Origin: Apostichopus japonicus
Taxonomy: Eukaryota > Echinodermata > Holothuroidea > Aspidochirotida > Stichopodidae
DNA: 64,000 nt
Assembly: GCF_037975245.1 (NCBI RefSeq)
Contig: NC_092564.1
Span: 13,914,484-13,978,483, forward strand
Reading direction: 5' to 3'
The notes under the pieces are model-generated. The model had not been told where the DNA came from, made no database searches, and saw only the letters and a list, made by a program, of their open reading frames with translations. Shown here in pieces: positions 1,787-63,830 of this stretch. A program made the translations under genes and the position numbers. Position 1 is the first letter of the stretch. The number at the start of each line of letters is the position of its first letter.

Positions 1787-1945
1787 ACGTCACTAAATAT
1801 ATATTATAATATGAGAAAGAAGAAACGTATCTATAGGCTACTTCAAACATTTTTCTTTGTTTTTAAAGTCTTTAATTGAAATGGCTTGACCTGAAGTAAA
1901 ATCAATTGAGTCGAACAGTATTGAATTCAGTAACAAAGTCAATTT

Positions 1946-2208
1946 TTAAGTGATGTAAAGTAAACTAAGACCTGACGATTGGCGATTTCTTAGTGCAGTG
2001 ATTCTGTCATCAATATCAAAGTCCTTTCCATATATTTGGCATTGGAAGCCTTCTTCGTTGATATTAACACAGAATGCAGAGCATTTGATTGGTTGGGAGG
2101 CACAGTACAATGCGCACGACATAACTGACGTTGACTGATATACCAGCAGAGGGCGCTCCATCATACACCAATTGTCATCATTACCAAAGCTACCATTCGT
2201 CTCACTCT
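1946..2208 (-). CDS. Lectin gene exon 5: PAN/Apple-like domain and stop
   Basis: The exon follows a long pyrimidine tract ending in TTCCAG. It encodes a Cys-rich segment spaced like a PAN/Apple module: C, then SCALYC, then KCSAFC, then QCQIYG. It ends LSLLYIT and TAA at 1948-1946. PAN modules mediate protein or carbohydrate binding in secreted proteins. The fold assignment rests on cysteine pattern and length only. Confidence 0.6.
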
Positions 2209-5200
2209 CTGGAAGAAAGAAAGAAAAGAAAAAAGAAAAGCTATTGGGTTTGTTTGATTCCGAAACCAATAGAGAGAATATATAATGTATAACTTAGTAA
2301 ATATGTAGGACATCAAAATAGCCGGATAAGTTATCGTAATGTTGTCCTCTTTGTTGGAGATAAGATATAAAAACCCCATTTTTGTCGGATTTTAGGCTTA
2401 TTTTCCTAACAAGAAAATGATGTTTCTTCTAGAGTAAAACTTACACAAAAACCTTCACTGACAATCGGGAAGGAAGCATATAGTCACAGTGTACACTGGA
2501 ACTAAGTACACGCAGGTAGTGCGTATGTAACATAGCCTACAGCCAGAACGTTTCGGTTACTATGGTTTACTGTAGCACATTTTGACTTTTTAGTATGGTC
2601 ACATACTGTCACATATGTGGCCTCACCACGGCAATGGAGTTTTAATCAAAATGTTCCTAGAAGCACTAAATATCGTAAATGTTAATTAAATTTCAAAGTT
2701 GTTCTGAAACTAAAATTCTACAATACCAGAAATTTAGCACCGTCCATGGAGGTGAACATTACTTTGGTGACATAACGTACATTCGTTCCAATTTTGTTAA
2801 AACATGAACTAAAGGATATTAACAATATGGAAAAAATATATATAATGAATAGGTGTTTTGAATTACCGTTCGTACTTTCTCTCAGTGTTATGAGTCTATA
2901 CGTCACTGTGGTAGTATTTCGAACTCGGCGTGGTATTGGTTGGTAAGAACAGTTACTGTTTAAGGCTACTGCATCATGGTTATGAGTAAGATTTCTATCT
3001 TCCCCTGCACTGGTGTCACGTGGCAGAGAAGTTGACGACTGGACCGTTCTCGATACGTCGGTCTTGCGTCGTGACCGTAACGTGGAAAATAATGGAATGT
3101 TTGGCGTAGAGTATGAAAGACTAGGCTTTTGGGACGAGGTCGTACTTTCCTCTGACGAAGTAACTCGGGGAAAATGTGCTCCCTGATTGGTTGACGGTGT
3201 ATTGAGAGTGACTGATGCCATCACTTCATATTCGGTGGGAGGCGTAGAACCGTAGGCTGATGTCGAAGGTTGAATTGGAACTGTGCTCGTTTCAACTAGG
3301 AGGGTGAAGGGTGCCACTGGATTGGTGGAGGGAGCATTGACGGATGTCATCGTTTCTGATCCAATAGTGGGCGTATAGTCGTATGGTGACGTCATAGGTC
3401 GATGCGACAGTGTGCTCGTATCAGTTTCCCCCAAGTGTTTCGTTGAAATTCCAGAATATGTTGTAAAGTCACTTTCAAGAGATGATGACTTCATAACAGG
3501 TTCCTGGCTACCATCTTGATGTGTATATTCAGTGGTTTCCATGTTAGTGAGTATTTCTGTTTGCAAAGAATATTGGGTATCTTCAACACTATTGGTCGCC
3601 AGAGCTGATCCTGAGGAAGTAATAAAATAAGTAAATTATAGAAGATATAAAAATGTTATACCCAGAACTATGTGACATCCTTCTGCTAATGTGTTGTAAA
3701 CAGTATTACTATATTGGGATGGTAAAAGAATACTATTTAGTTAGAAACGAGATTAAACTTGAATCGTTGGCCTCTAGATAACATGTCTGCTATATGACGC
3801 TCTAGTTAAGAGCTGGTCCTCGTATCCCATTATTTGCTGTAAATGCGATAGTCTTAAAAGATAGCGTAGTGTCGTTTATCTTTTTATGTTATTTCACTTC
3901 AGTTTTCATTTCCATATGTACTGAAGGTAAGTTACTCTGTTGTGAACATTTAATCAGTGATCATTCAATATAAGATGGCCATTATGCGTCGTTATAGTGA
4001 ATAGATAATACTCAAAACGTCACATAACTGAATCCTGAACTTTGGCAGGGTGTGGGGTGACATGCATTTGAGGGGGTGATGGTGTGGTTGATAAGGGCAG
4101 AGGAAGAGGGAGTACATCGTTATCACTGGTGCTACCACAAGCTACCAGCCGAGTCCCATTGCTGCAAGCTTAAGGCAGTCAATTTAAGTAAGTCAAATGT
4201 ATAACAGCCGAGGACGAAATGGTGTAAGACTTGTCAATTTTTACTAGTTTTATACATATAATTTTTGGCTTACATCATAACATCGAGCTTATTATCTGGA
4301 AACGACATATGTGTTAATAGAAATTATCAATTATTATCAAATTATCAGTTGTTAGCGGCGGAGAGTGCGTTTCACCTCTCAGTCACGAATACAAGGTAGC
4401 AGCGACAAAGGGCATATTGCTCGAGGACCCCGCTATTCCATGGTATTCTTTGCTTGTATAAGATGTGTCAGGGTTTATTTAAGCACAGAAAAAAATGACA
4501 GCTCCTCATCCCCTCTTCCTCATCTGGCTTATCCTAGAACGTACTAGATATAAAACACCTTATACGTTATTGTGGGAATTACTGAATAGCCTAGTTATGT
4601 TAATACTCTTAATTCGAACACCTATATACCACTCAATGTTGGGAAAGGCAGTTTTTTTTTATTACGACGGTGTTTCAAGGAGAGTCGAGAGATACAGAGC
4701 AGCAACACCCTGTCTTCCTTTCAACCCGTCATACCCCCTATATCCATAACTTTATGTATACATAGATATGCTAGGCGGGAGAAAGAAAGACTATGATGTC
4801 TCTTCGGCTGTGCTATCTATGTATTGCAGAGTACAGACAGGTCATGAATGAAATAATGAAGTTGATAAAGCAAACCATCTAGATTTATATTGGAATAAGA
4901 TTCAAAATCAAACTCCCAAACAACAAGGCCAATTAATATATAAATCTGCTAAAAGCATTCTTGTTGTCCCGAAGATCGATGTAAAAAAGATAAGGGCATC
5001 CTTGTGTCCCTATAATAAGATAGAGAGCATACTTTCTGTGAGTATATTTTGAGTATGAGTACAATGTCCCGAGAGCGAGTACAATCCCATGGGTACGAGC
5101 ACGATAGCAGAAAAAGGTATACGAGTAAGCGCAGGAGAACGGACTCTTGTACTCCAAGTTGGGTACTTGGCATGCTGGTTGTATCATTGAAAGCTTAGGT

Positions 5201-7370
5201 AAAACGTTGACTTAATGTAATTCATTATGCGATAGTCGTTTCTATAGTAACTGATATCTACTCACGGGACTCATTGTGACTCACTAAGAAATACAGTTGC
5301 CTAGTCTTACCTGATAGTTGTGTAGCTGATGGACTAGGAGAAGTCGCCTGAACCGGCGACTTGCATACTGCGTTTAAGTACACTCCTTCACACACGATCG
5401 GTATCCACCATTCAAAATCACTCGACATAGTCAGGCAAAGTTCCAAAGTCGTGGAAACAAATGAAATATCTTGGTAAAATGCTGGTAAGAGAGGAAGCAA
5501 ATTATCCTGTATGATAGTGTACCATAATTACGAATGATTAGCCTAGGTCTACAATAAATGAAAAATTGAGGCAGTACATATATGAACTGTGCCAAAGACG
5601 TCATGGATATTTAATTACTGGAGTGGTCTGAATTCCTGAGATATACTTGGGACTTGGTCAAATAGAAATACTTTCGTGATTAAAGAGTATGGCCACGAAA
5701 TGCCTGTAAAATGCCTTTAAAATGCCTAAATAACAGTGTCTTGCAGAGGATTTCAAAGATGGTGTGAAATCCTACATCATCCCCATACTCTTCCTCAAGA
5801 CTGATTGAAGTAAGAACATGAACCTTTGGAGGTTCCTGGGCCCAGAGGAGTGGTCTAATTCTGCTCCGACTGCAGGTAGAACATATCCCGACTGAAAGTT
5901 TTACAGCCAAAGACTATAGAGGTAAGTGGGAGGGGTGGGGTGGTTACGTAACACTGCATCGTTCGACGTGAGAAAGAGGGAAGAAAATGGCAAGAAGAAA
6001 AATTACAAATTAATTTTCTTCGCATATTTTACCCCATAATCCAGACTGGTTTGAATTTGAGTAAAAGTAAACATCTTCTTTGGGTTCTCCGATACAGTAG
6101 TAAGCCAAAGATGTTTCTTCCTTCCAGCATCCCAACCAAACAAATTCACTGGTTGCATGAGAGCCCAAAGCTGAAGTTACTTCGTTGAGTTCCTCTTCAG
6201 TGTGAAGAACAAGGAGGTCTGCATTAGGGTCACGAGTTTGACACATTTCAATAGCATCCCGCCATGTTGTAGTCGATCCCGTGACGTAATAGCAGTAATT
6301 TGCATACTCCCAATCTGCATTTGGGCAGTTGGTTAACGCATTCGGAAGCACAGAACCATCTAAGACACAATAATACACAATGATACACAATGCTGTTGTC
6401 ATATTGTCAAAAAAGAAAAGAAATTGAGAACAATTTGTGTTCAATGCCGTAAATTGTATTTGCTTGATGTTGTTTTTATAGATAATTTACTACATTTATA
6501 TGATTGTGCAGTAATAAATATGTGACTGTGCGTCAATGTATTCCATTAATTTGCAGCACGCAAGTAATAAAAGTAGCTGATGCATATACAGAATCAAATT
6601 ACTGGAAATAATAAACGAATAGAATGATTCAACATTCTTGTTTGTCGGATACTTTTTTCATGAGTTTTGCGCTAAAAGGGAGTGAGCTCAATTTTTGGAT
6701 ATGACTTTACAATTAATGATACTTTCTTTGCCAGTTTTAGCTTGCGACCTATTTCCTTCAGTTAACAATACGCTGATAATTAGAACATTAGAACAAACTT
6801 TGAGCTCAATAGTAATAAATACTGTCCCGGCTTTGACTAAATAGGTTATGAAGGCTAGTACACGCACTACTGTAGTACCCGATAACCGAACCGACTAGTC
6901 TGCACCTGTTAAACAGATACTTCTACAGCAAATATTTTATTGGCAACTGAAAGTAAAATTTTAACAACGTTCTTGAATTCCTAAGGTACCTTACTGTATT
7001 TGAGCACAATTTCGATCCCGGGTAAATTACAAATATACAGCAAAAGAGGCAATTTTTAAACTTTTAGCAAAGTACTAAAAGACCAAATGAAAAAGAATTT
7101 CTAACAATAATTAACTAAAAACAAAAGAGAAAGAAGAAAAAAGAAAGAATAAAGACCGATAATGTAGTGCCAACATGATTTTGAGTAACAAAAAAATACA
7201 AATTCTCCATCGGAATCCACTTTTTGAACTCCAGATTGAATTAAGTGTAACATCATCACCTCTGAATTAAATATTATTAATAAAAAACGTAATAAAATAA
7301 GAAAAAGGTGCATTTACTAACCGGCAAGTATCATCGTAGAAAGCAAAACAGCAATCCTGATAAAATTCAT
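1946..7370 (-). CDS. Secreted C-type lectin with mucin-like stalk and PAN/Apple-like module (five exons)
   Basis: Reconstructed as join of 7370-7322, 6359-6033, 5481-5311, 3610-2867 and 2208-1946 on the minus strand, 1554 nt or 517 codons plus TAA. Each junction has GT..AG ends, a pyrimidine-rich acceptor, and the same phase: one base is left over at every donor and two bases open the next exon. Domains in order: hydrophobic signal peptide (about residues 1-16), long-form C-type lectin domain (about 20-165), Ser/Thr/Pro-rich stalk (about 170-430), and a Cys-rich PAN/Apple-like domain (about 435-500). No transmembrane helix or GPI signal is evident, so the product is probably secreted. Family knowledge suggests carbohydrate or microbial-surface recognition. 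The EPN/QPD sugar-binding motifs are not obvious, so calcium-dependent binding is unproven. The stalk holds N-glycosylation sequons (NLT, NCS, NTT). The main uncertainty is whether all five exons belong to one transcript. Confidence 0.7.
2867..3610 (-). CDS. Lectin gene exon 4: Ser/Thr-rich mucin-like stalk
   Basis: A 744-nt exon with acceptor TTACTTCCTCAG just 5' of 3610 and donor G|GTAATT at 2867/2866. About 247 residues are dominated by Ser, Thr and Pro, with loosely repeated segments (for example STNPVAPF and STNQGAHF, PYDYTPTIGSE and AYGSTPPTEYE). This suggests internal duplication of a roughly 45-residue unit. Dense O-glycosylation and an extended stalk are the expected consequence. A basic cluster RSRRK in the middle could be a protease site. 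Confidence 0.65.
3611..5310 (-). other. Intron 3 of the lectin gene
   Basis: About 1.7 kb between the CTLD-end exon and the stalk exon. Short open frames here (4365-4749 plus strand, 4933-5187 minus strand) have no recognisable domain and no paired splice sites. I see no mobile element or strong repeat. Confidence 0.55.
5311..5481 (-). CDS. Lectin gene exon 3: C-terminal end of the C-type lectin domain
   Basis: The acceptor tract CTTCCTCTCTTACCAG ends at 5482 and the donor GTAAGA starts at 5310. The exon supplies the closing CTLD signature, FEWWIPIVC followed by AVCK, with cysteine spacing typical of the third and fourth conserved cysteines. It then runs into SPSPSATQLS, the start of the stalk. 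Phase matches exon 2 and exon 4. Confidence 0.7.
6033..6359 (-). CDS. Lectin gene exon 2: N-terminal two thirds of the C-type lectin domain
   Basis: The acceptor TGTGTCTTAG precedes 6359. The exon encodes the long-form pair of cysteines (NCPN..ANYCYY), the first helix with W-R-D-A-I-E-M-C, the LLVLHTEEELNEV helix-2 motif and the FVWLGC core. It ends at TGG G then GTAAAA (donor at 6032-6031). If the donor is not used, the frame continues seven codons to TAA at 6012-6010 and gives a truncated 132-residue protein lacking the last two canonical CTLD cysteines. Confidence 0.7.
7322..7370 (-). CDS. Lectin gene exon 1: start codon and signal peptide
   Basis: ATG at 7370-7368 begins MNFIRIAVLLSTMILA, a basic then hydrophobic secretion leader. 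It ends in a GTTAGT donor at 7321. A TATA box lies 57 bases upstream, giving a 5' leader of roughly 30 bases. The single base left over joins the next exon to read D-G-S. Confidence 0.7.
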
Positions 7371-7426
7371 GCTGGTGACCTTCTCTCGACTGAGAAATGT
7401 AATGCTACGCACTATTGCACTAAAAC

Positions 7427-7432
7427 TATATA
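7427..7432 (-). promoter_or_regulatory. TATA box of the lectin gene
   Basis: TATATA reads within CTATATAG on the minus strand, 57 bases 5' of the start codon. That places initiation about 30 bases upstream of the ATG. Identified by position only. Confidence 0.45.
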
Positions 7433-7803
7433 GCCGGCAAACAGTACTTACTTCTCCATAATTACACCTCTACATTTTAAGTGATTTAAGATTAAAGAGA
7501 GACAGAGGGAGGGAAAGAGAAAATGAGTGAGACAAAAAAAGAGTTATTGGCCTCCTTCTAAATCAATAGCTAATTGAAGAGTTTAGTTGATTGAGTTCAT
7601 TATTGGACTTTATTGTTTACTGTATTAATGAAGTCGACAAGCCTCTACACCGTAACGGATAATGGCAAATTACTTTGAGGCACAAGGTTGCCTCAATGGA
7701 TTAATAAGTATATCGCTAATTACGTTTCTAAAGATAACCTTGTTTGATTGAATTTTGTAAATTGGACTGACTGACTCTCGGTTGGACTTACAAGCTTGAA
7801 TAA
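7433..7803. other. Upstream flank of the lectin gene
   Basis: AT-rich sequence with a purine-rich run (GAGAGACAGAGGGAGGG) near 7496-7520. No gene, RNA or element is recognised. Confidence 0.4.

Positions 7804-7886
<83 letters not shown>
7804..7886. repeat. (AT)n microsatellite
   Basis: About 83 bases of uninterrupted alternating A/T except for one C near 7819. It directly abuts the 3' tail (on the minus strand) of the SINE-like element at 7887-8004 and may be that element's simple-repeat tail. Confidence 0.95.
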
Positions 7887-7889
<3 letters not shown>

Positions 7890-8004
7890 ATTCAATAAAG
7901 AATAACACACCAGAAAAATGCGAAGGTAGGAATCGAACCCCGGATCTTCGTGTCACGAACCGAAGTCCGTACCACTCAACCACCGTGATTCTTCTGGTGT
8001 GTTA
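7887..8004 (-). mobile_element. tRNA-derived SINE-like fragment
   Basis: On the minus strand this contains an A-box-like TGGTTGAGTGGT and, about 45 bases later, a perfect B box GGTTCGATTCC, the internal RNA polymerase III promoter of tRNAs. A tail (ATTTTTCTGG..TTCTTTATTG) runs into the (AT)n tract. The spacing and a long variable arm resemble a degenerate Ser-type tRNA head, but the acceptor stem does not pair, so it is not a functional tRNA. The segment is also bounded by 13-bp inverted repeats, TAACACACCAGAA at 7903-7915 and its complement at 7992-8004. Its sequence is shared, inverted, with the ribozyme element at 8079-8180. Confidence 0.6.
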
Positions 8005-8078
8005 AAGCGTATAAATTGGCTTTGAATAACTGTCATTATAGGGGCGTATTATCCAAGTGTTATGATTGATAATCACCT

Positions 8079-8180
8079 CGGGGTGCGATTCCTACCTTCG
8101 CCTGATGAGTCCCAAAAGGACGAAACCGGTCGTGAAGTGGAATTTTTCTGGGGTGTTATTCTTTATTGAATTACTATATA
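8079..8180 (+). mobile_element. Hammerhead-bearing retroelement terminus
   Basis: The segment from CGGGGT to the ACTATATA end matches the inverted SINE-like copy on both sides of the ribozyme. The left part (GATTCCTACCTTCGC) and the right part (ATTTTTCTGG, TGTTATTCTTTATTGAATTAC) are almost identical, with about 40 bases of ribozyme core inserted between them. Hammerheads of this kind are known from Penelope-like elements and small circular-RNA retrozymes in animals. No reverse transcriptase is present here, so this is a non-autonomous or truncated copy. Confidence 0.6.
8087..8144 (+). ncRNA. Type I hammerhead self-cleaving ribozyme
   Basis: All catalytic positions are present. Core CTGATGA is at 8102-8108. 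Stem II is GTCC/GGAC (8109-8112 with 8118-8121) closing a CAAAA loop. GAAA is at 8122-8125. Stem III is ACC/GGT at 8125-8130, and the cleavage triplet GTC ends at 8131. Stem I pairs CTTCGC (8096-8101) with GTGAAG (8132-8137) with one G-U wobble. After a small internal loop (8093-8095 opposite 8138) it continues as GATTCC (8087-8092) with GGAATT (8139-8144). The internal loop is where stem I normally contacts loop II. Stem III has no hairpin loop: ACCGGT is a palindrome, so efficient cleavage would probably need a dimeric form, as described for minimal retroelement hammerheads. Confidence 0.88.
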
Positions 8181-8333
8181 TCTGTCATACCACTTGCTAC
8201 ACATTCAATTCTTATTTACGCTTGCTTGGCTTGCATAAAGAGTGGTTATTCTGTGTAAAATTGTCAGATTTAAAGCGCCAGGAGGGTGTACACAACAAAC
8301 ACACACATAAAGATATATTTATATCTATGTAAG
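8181..8333. other. Unassigned spacer before the satellite
   Basis: About 150 bases between the ribozyme element and the first satellite-related sequence. No gene or repeat is recognised. Confidence 0.4.

Positions 8334-57507: not shown

Positions 57508-63830
<6,323 letters not shown>

Follow-up and report, generated by a model that had tools for sequence, protein, structure and literature searches.

What is a hammerhead ribozyme doing beside a satellite array in the genome of the sea cucumber Apostichopus japonicus, and how did it come to be there? The question extends beyond this locus to the machinery that moves animal retrozymes, which we addressed here through a genomic signature of insertion. 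The starting point was a stretch of 64,000 nucleotides, hereafter called the window.

The window hammerhead

The hammerhead is of type I, with an extended stem I, and occupies positions 8087-8144 of the plus strand (core 8102-8131). The covariance search that an earlier note on this DNA had proposed matched Rfam model RF00163 (Hammerhead_1) to 8096-8137 (+) over the whole model, 1-45, with 38.8 bits and an E value of 2.8e-6. This is above the gathering score of 34 and is a type I score. The hammerhead was the sole match, with no second Rfam RNA family at the gathering threshold within the 64-kb window. Every core position is present when read on the sequence, together with the GUC (NUH) cleavage triplet, as the earlier note had stated. 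In hammerhead numbering, we take C3-U4-G5-A6-U7-G8-A9 to be 8102-8108, followed by G12-A13-A14, the pair A15.1/U16.1 and C17 at 8131; the predicted cut would fall at 8131/8132. Stem II is GUCC/GGAC with the loop CAAAA, and stem I consists of 6 bp, the internal loop UAC/U and then 6 outer pairs, so both loops named in the earlier note are there. The extended stem I with its internal loop refutes another of its statements, namely that this is a minimal hammerhead of the type found in Penelope-like elements (PLEs). For the sister loci L013 and L029, the best Rfam match was HH9 with 40 bits, which is below the HH9 gathering score of 52.

Stem III is the self-complementary ACCGGU (ACCGGT in DNA). 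It is indeed too short for a monomer, in which it is limited to one A-U pair around CCGG, short of the stem III of a type I hammerhead. RNAfold gave -17.4 kcal/mol for the 58-mer (z -2.23), with a minimum free energy (MFE) structure that mispairs the core, versus -14.8 for the monomer folded as a hammerhead without stem III. For two copies, the MFE structure was a double hammerhead joined via ACCGGU/ACCGGU, at -38.9 versus 2 x -17.4. This folding model supports the proposal that the RNA would be cleaved by way of a dimer. The same weak stem III is described for newt-type hammerheads (PMC7229834).

The exact core pattern was found at no fewer than 332 places genome-wide (163 + 169 by strand) versus 0 + 0 when read backwards, so the hammerhead is not a product of chance; the genome-wide place counts are lower bounds. 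An RF00163 search of the genome, in which 74 of 66,307 first-look candidates were scored, yielded 59 matches at E<=1e-3, 50 of them above the cut-off. The observation of a hammerhead is thus confirmed.

The retrozyme unit and its copy in the window

The hammerhead is part of a non-coding unit of about 340 nt, which is sometimes tandem. Counted from the cut, the unit consists of the 3' strand of stem I, a T5 run, a tail in which two notable sites fall 45 and 84 nt beyond the ribozyme cut, the body, an A box (TGGTCGAGTGG), a B box (GGTTCGATTCC), the 5' strand of stem I and the hammerhead, which directly follows the boxes. In 8 loci, two cut sites enclose complete units, nine in total and 323-352 nt long, and the family has tandem units with one hammerhead each, as do metazoan non-LTR retrozymes. 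It also resembles them in GC content below 50% and in the lack of coding capacity, both assessed on one unit (41.5% GC; when the unit is doubled, no stop-free run is longer than 62 codons). In 65 of 94 cases, the core is followed by CCGGTCGT, which comprises stem III and the base triplet after it. We conclude with high confidence that the family is an animal non-LTR retrozyme, and the link to animal retrozymes and PLEs drawn in the earlier note is upheld.

A stable fold of the whole circle was considered and rejected, as z was inconsistent across 8 units (-0.03 to -4.14). Beside a retrozyme dimer in L013, positions 1124-1217 form a long near-perfect hairpin, for which Rfam reports MIR1513 with 50.5 bits (gathering score 95). 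At G000:C1:12105673-12119566, retrozyme matches recur every 5.3-7.9 kb, as if a larger block had been duplicated.

Internal A and B boxes, which characterize tRNA-derived SINEs, are present as motifs. The strict A-box + B-box pattern precedes 34 of the 94 hammerhead cores, truncated copies being among the 94. ARAGORN, applied to 13 loci for a tRNA fold, made 3 calls, none inside a retrozyme segment, and in the 4 loci searched with Rfam, tRNA families did not reach E<=1. Runs of at least four T occur within 40 nt after the core in 82/94 cases, and runs of at least five in 71/94. The sole run of four or more in the unit is located just after the hammerhead. Pol III would therefore stop there, which counts against Pol III transcription of the retrozyme; judged from these motifs, we regard such transcription as an evenly balanced possibility.

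The window copy is truncated. BLAST aligned 8079-8282 (+) with unit 288 to 150, a stretch of 0.6 unit that shares 94% identity with the L013 unit. As the copy starts just before the B box, it has no A box; its B-box-like motif (8082-8092, +) carries one substitution, and a T5 run resembling a Pol III terminator (8143-8147, +) follows 12 nt after the predicted cut. The right end, unit 150, coincides with neither of the two tail sites (start sites). An inverted copy is joined to this one 5'-to-5'. It comprises unit 164-310 at 7920-8068 (-; BLAST), where a B-box-like motif (7929-7939, -) and an A-box-like motif (7972-7982, -) were read on the sequence, and continues with unit 11-50 at 7880-7919 (-), where it has lost the hammerhead and has its 3' end at start site 1. 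An (AT)n microsatellite (7800-7886) lies at this 3' end and is the presumed insertion target.

The inverted copy (7880-8068) thus has no hammerhead between unit 310 and 11, and the locus contains a single one. A skip by the reverse transcriptase (RT) or a DNA deletion could have caused this precise loss. A separate hammerhead-less family was rejected, because a genome search allowing <=3 mismatches located the junction (7908-7939, -) at 1 place, in the window. The window copy does not form a tandem, and as it is truncated and has one hammerhead and a partner without one, it can form no dimer or circle in cis.

The satellite has a period of 323 bp and forms an array at 8590-52761, with degraded copies to 54486 and about 137 copies at 97%. 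It gave no retrozyme match (BLAST, E<=1e-4) and no hammerhead at the Rfam gathering score. The earlier note was right that a satellite array adjoins the hammerhead, but the two are not related, and the satellite is a bystander. What remains at the locus is a broken insertion, ordinary debris with an unrelated satellite as its neighbour, and the earlier interpretation as a whole is partly supported. Two more tandem arrays are present in the window, at 57983-58997 (period about 102/204 bp) and at 61989-62517 (about 50/99 bp).

We collected 91 loci of the family with 128 segments. Seven loci were dropped as duplicates judged by their flanks (L007, L051, L052, L057, L059, L062, and L076), as were two repeated segments, one in L019 and one in L084, leaving 84 de-duplicated loci with 118 segments. 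The hammerhead had served to choose 71 of the 91 loci, from the best 12 of the 59 RF00163 matches and the 100 listed of the 332 core places (contigs C1-C8, tandem-looking pairs first). Only the 20 independent loci (L081-L100), picked by body sequence alone and regardless of the hammerhead, therefore bear on hammerhead conservation and provide unbiased 3' ends. They hold 22 of the 49 exact places among the matches listed (100 of 311) in the body-sequence search.

Compared with the reference, the hammerhead (unit 311-340) of the 20 independent loci differs at 17/855 positions and the body at 293/3629; of 18 segments, 16 change more slowly in the hammerhead than in the body and 2 change faster. 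Such counts per segment supplement Fisher tests in which sites are treated as independent. The rate for the 5' strand of stem I (38/214) is inflated by a private base of the reference at 308, where 25 of 26 copies differ. We read these differences as a sign that the ribozyme is maintained. In 13 diverged de-duplicated segments (<85% identity, 11 loci), the A and B boxes together differ at 25/253 positions, the inter-box spacer at 126/337 and the body at 330/1474, and the boxes are slower than the body in 9/9 diverged segments. They are less distinct from the body in the 20 independent loci (A box, 11/317; B box, 22/305). Less surely, the promoter module also appears to be maintained.

Insertion ends and the Penelope-like elements of the genome

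Among the 113 free 3' ends in the 84 loci, site 1 (unit 44-52) accounts for 49 and site 2 (unit 73-90) for 31, the other 33 lying elsewhere. Thus, two sites about 39 nt apart take 80/113; without removal of duplicates, the 123 free 3' ends are divided into 50, 32, and 41, and in the 20 independent loci 12 + 8 of 27 ends are at the two sites. Only 3 + 1 of 64 free 5' ends are at these sites, the remainder being spread over the unit. Within 40 bp outside the 3' ends, (AT)>=12 is present in 41/49 cases at site 1, 21/31 at site 2, and 6/33 elsewhere, and it lies outside 16/64 free 5' ends. Accordingly, 62 of the 80 site ends run into (AT)n and 18 are without (AT)>=12. Random 40-mers (4000 each) contain (AT)>=12 in 0.25% of cases in the non-satellite window and 3.3% in the distal flanks of L001-L012.

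This non-random choice of 3' ends and targets argues against a satellite or dead repeat that was spread by DNA-level duplication and in which the hammerhead is a relic. Some loci are plain duplicates (the 7 dropped) and most copies are truncated, as such a history predicts, but the family is found at hundreds of dispersed places on many contigs, and the slower change of the hammerhead core in 16/18 segments does not suit a relic. We consider spread by duplication extremely improbable.

Among the 118 segments, 23 are longer than 1.05 units, the longest being 2.28. Both sites lie past the ribozyme cut and the copies run back through it, so the templates were continuous across the cut, that is, circles or uncut multimers. 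In multi-lap insertions (n=20), the laps are closer to each other than the median of the other copies in 15/20 cases, and as close as or closer than the nearest other copy in 3/20. The laps are thus often not mutually closest copies, which does not favour the simple case of a single circle copied by rolling, but the comparison is compatible with either a circle or a multimer as template.

The same ends bear on the possibility that an ordinary LINE mobilizes the family as a tRNA-derived SINE, with (AT)n as its 3' tail rather than a target and with an incidental hammerhead, as described for Sm-alpha of Schistosoma. Sm-alpha and Sj-alpha provide a precedent (PMC2770079), and the A/B motifs 5' of the hammerhead, conserved in diverged copies at the rates given above, agree with it. 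However, the 5' ends of such an element should be fixed at the promoter rather than spread over the unit, the (AT)>=12 should not also lie by 16/64 5' ends, and copies should not cross the ribozyme cut for up to 2.28 laps. An ordinary SINE-like family of the genome, unrelated to the retrozyme, lacked the signature, with (AT)>=12 at 0/20 3' ends and 0/20 5' ends; this control (L141-L160) represents 20 of 979 places at <=1 mismatch, with estimated boundaries, and L159 and L160 look duplicated. A LINE-driven origin is thus quite unlikely in our view. The control family has a tRNA-Ser-like A box, and in two of its copies (TTA)n takes over at the B box.

Inverted copies lying no more than 25 bp apart formed 25 pairs joined 5'-to-5' and 0 pairs joined 3'-to-3' (p 6e-8 versus even chance). 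In 10 pairs both outer ends coincide with a site, in 14 one does, and in 1 neither. Two target-primed starts predict the 10/25 pairs in which both outer ends are at start sites, and in vitro a PLE protein has been found to cleave AT-rich DNA on both strands and to extend each of them (PMC11167929). Both observations weigh against a PLE-driven process in which the head-to-head copies come, as was suggested for the Penelope elements of rotifers, from an antisense template that primes itself and not from two DNA ends. Head-to-head copies are common in PLEs and have been explained by such antisense self-priming, with junction palindromes (PMC3846280); for the retrozyme, we judge this route improbable and prefer priming at two DNA ends.

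Two PLE proteins from the genome, PLE-A and PLE-B, both carry RT and GIY-YIG in one frame. GIY-YIG has 37 matches in the genome (150 of 626 candidates scored), and the 231-nt 3' region of PLE-A has 42 (40 of 79 candidates scored), which include possible duplicates. The 3' ends of PLE-A are distributed between one site (21) and a second about 32 nt on (20), with 1 tandem junction, and 41/41 site ends run into (AT)>=12. Opposite-strand PLE-A neighbours within 5 kb face outward in 7/7 pairs, of which two C16 pairs are equally spaced and may be one event. The optional 3' tail of Penelope is described as 31 bp (PMC3846280) or as 30-40 bp with two reverse-transcription start sites (PMC11167929), and insertion of RNA uncut by its own hammerhead and head-to-head copies are among the Penelope hallmarks (PMC11167929, PMC3846280). 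The retrozyme shows the hallmarks of this mechanism, namely two-site 3' ends, an AT-rich target and head-to-head copies, and its two 3'-end sites, (AT)n target and outward inverted pairs match the PLE signature. It is not itself a PLE, as its unit has no RT or GIY-YIG ORF. From these sequence patterns, PLE-type target-primed insertion of the retrozyme is probably the correct account and the best explanation that we have.

No solved structure related to the PLE-A protein was found at E<=0.01. In L041, PLE-A is tandem (2999 bp apart), and 1847-4042 and 5774-7969 form a 2196-nt inverted repeat with 100% complementarity. A hammerhead in PLE-A was rejected, as only a degenerate remnant (stem II, GAAAC, GTC) can be discerned by eye; Rfam detected no hammerhead in L033-L040 at E<=1 or in L041-L042 at E<=5.

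The mobilizer might instead be another PLE family, such as PLE-B. The PLE-B-like loci L034, L036, and L042 run into (AT)n and have a hammerhead-like core by eye, whose stem II in L034 is unlike that in L036/L042 on both sides. Against this stand the absence of an Rfam hammerhead in these three loci and the two-site 3' end, which was measured for PLE-A only. We regard PLE-B as a somewhat doubtful candidate and PLE-A as the preferred one.

A 3' sequence common to the retrozyme and PLE-A seemed plausible by eye but was not supported, as 229/300 shuffles, and 510/1000 for the tails, reach its score. When the two tails are aligned from an anchor, an arrangement chosen after the data were seen, 222/5000 dinucleotide and 79/5000 mononucleotide shuffles reach the score; for local alignment, the numbers are 1635/5000 and 873/5000. 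The true tail window, also chosen after the data were seen, ranks 1st of 340 positions. The anchored likeness of the tails is at most suggestive.

A model of insertion and its relation to known systems

In the model that we favour, the A and B boxes would be a type-2 Pol III-like promoter just before a hammerhead whose stem III is completed only in a dimer. Hammerheads acting in pairs would cleave the RNA of tandem copies, and this RNA, by analogy with published retrozymes, would probably be closed into a circle. It would serve as a substitute template for a PLE, whose enzyme would open an (AT)n microsatellite and prime at the RNA site 45 or 84 nt past the cut. Copying would proceed backwards through the hammerhead and cover anything between part of a lap and 2.3 laps. 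Priming would often occur from both DNA ends, and the two cDNAs would then be joined 5' to 5'. The window copy may be a truncated product of such an insertion. Cleavage, circularization, Pol III transcription, and trans-mobilization are the steps that we infer.

The model may apply more widely. Animal retrozymes would then be non-autonomous SINE-like partners of PLEs: a promoter-bearing retrozyme would be inserted in trans by the PLE RT, primed from both ends of an (AT)n break at two internal RNA sites, with its cDNAs joined 5'-to-5' and without recognizable similarity to PLE RNA. We lean towards this wider view.

Animal retrozymes, their circles and their proposed mobilization by PLEs have already been published, the mobilization having been proposed from co-occurrence and common traits (PMC7229834, PMC7761336). 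Our search of the open-access literature revealed no previous description of the sea cucumber element, nor of a retrozyme with such an insertion signature. What is new is the manner of insertion, together with a promoter-like module, in a retrozyme family. As the retrozyme and the PLE have in common the 3' ends at two sites, the insertion in (AT)n and the outward pairs, the question of the mobilizer can be put directly to the test in vitro. The view that retrozymes depend on read-through transcription would need qualification if an internal promoter-like module is conserved. According to a review, published retrozymes seem promoterless (PMC7761336), whereas the sea cucumber family has conserved A/B-box motifs; a promoter has been reported in the LTR of a plant retrozyme.

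The family is close to several known systems in different respects. Metazoan non-LTR retrozymes (Acropora, Mytilus, axolotl; PMC7229834) are alike in the type I hammerhead, in GC-poor, non-coding tandem units of about 170-400 nt and in the presence of PLEs in the same genome, and the axolotl retrozyme also in a weak, dimer-favouring stem III. They differ from the present family in its (AT)n insertion, two fixed 3' sites, and 5'-to-5' inverted pairs. Sm-alpha and Sj-alpha of Schistosoma (PMC2770079, PMC8490949), likened by their description, are likewise short, multi-copy elements with a tRNA-like part and a type I hammerhead; in the sea cucumber family, by contrast, ARAGORN and Rfam recognized no tRNA and the insertion signature is of the Penelope type. 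The satellite hammerheads of newt and axolotl (PMC7229834, PMC6155905) also have a one-pair stem III and a palindromic tetraloop, with the dimer as the expected active form, whereas here the copies are dispersed truncated insertions and not large numbers of satellite repeats. PLEs (PMC11167929, PMC3846280) have in common with the retrozyme the AT-rich targets, two start sites, tandem and head-to-head copies and a template uncut at the hammerhead, and in contrast to them the retrozyme unit has neither reverse transcriptase nor endonuclease.
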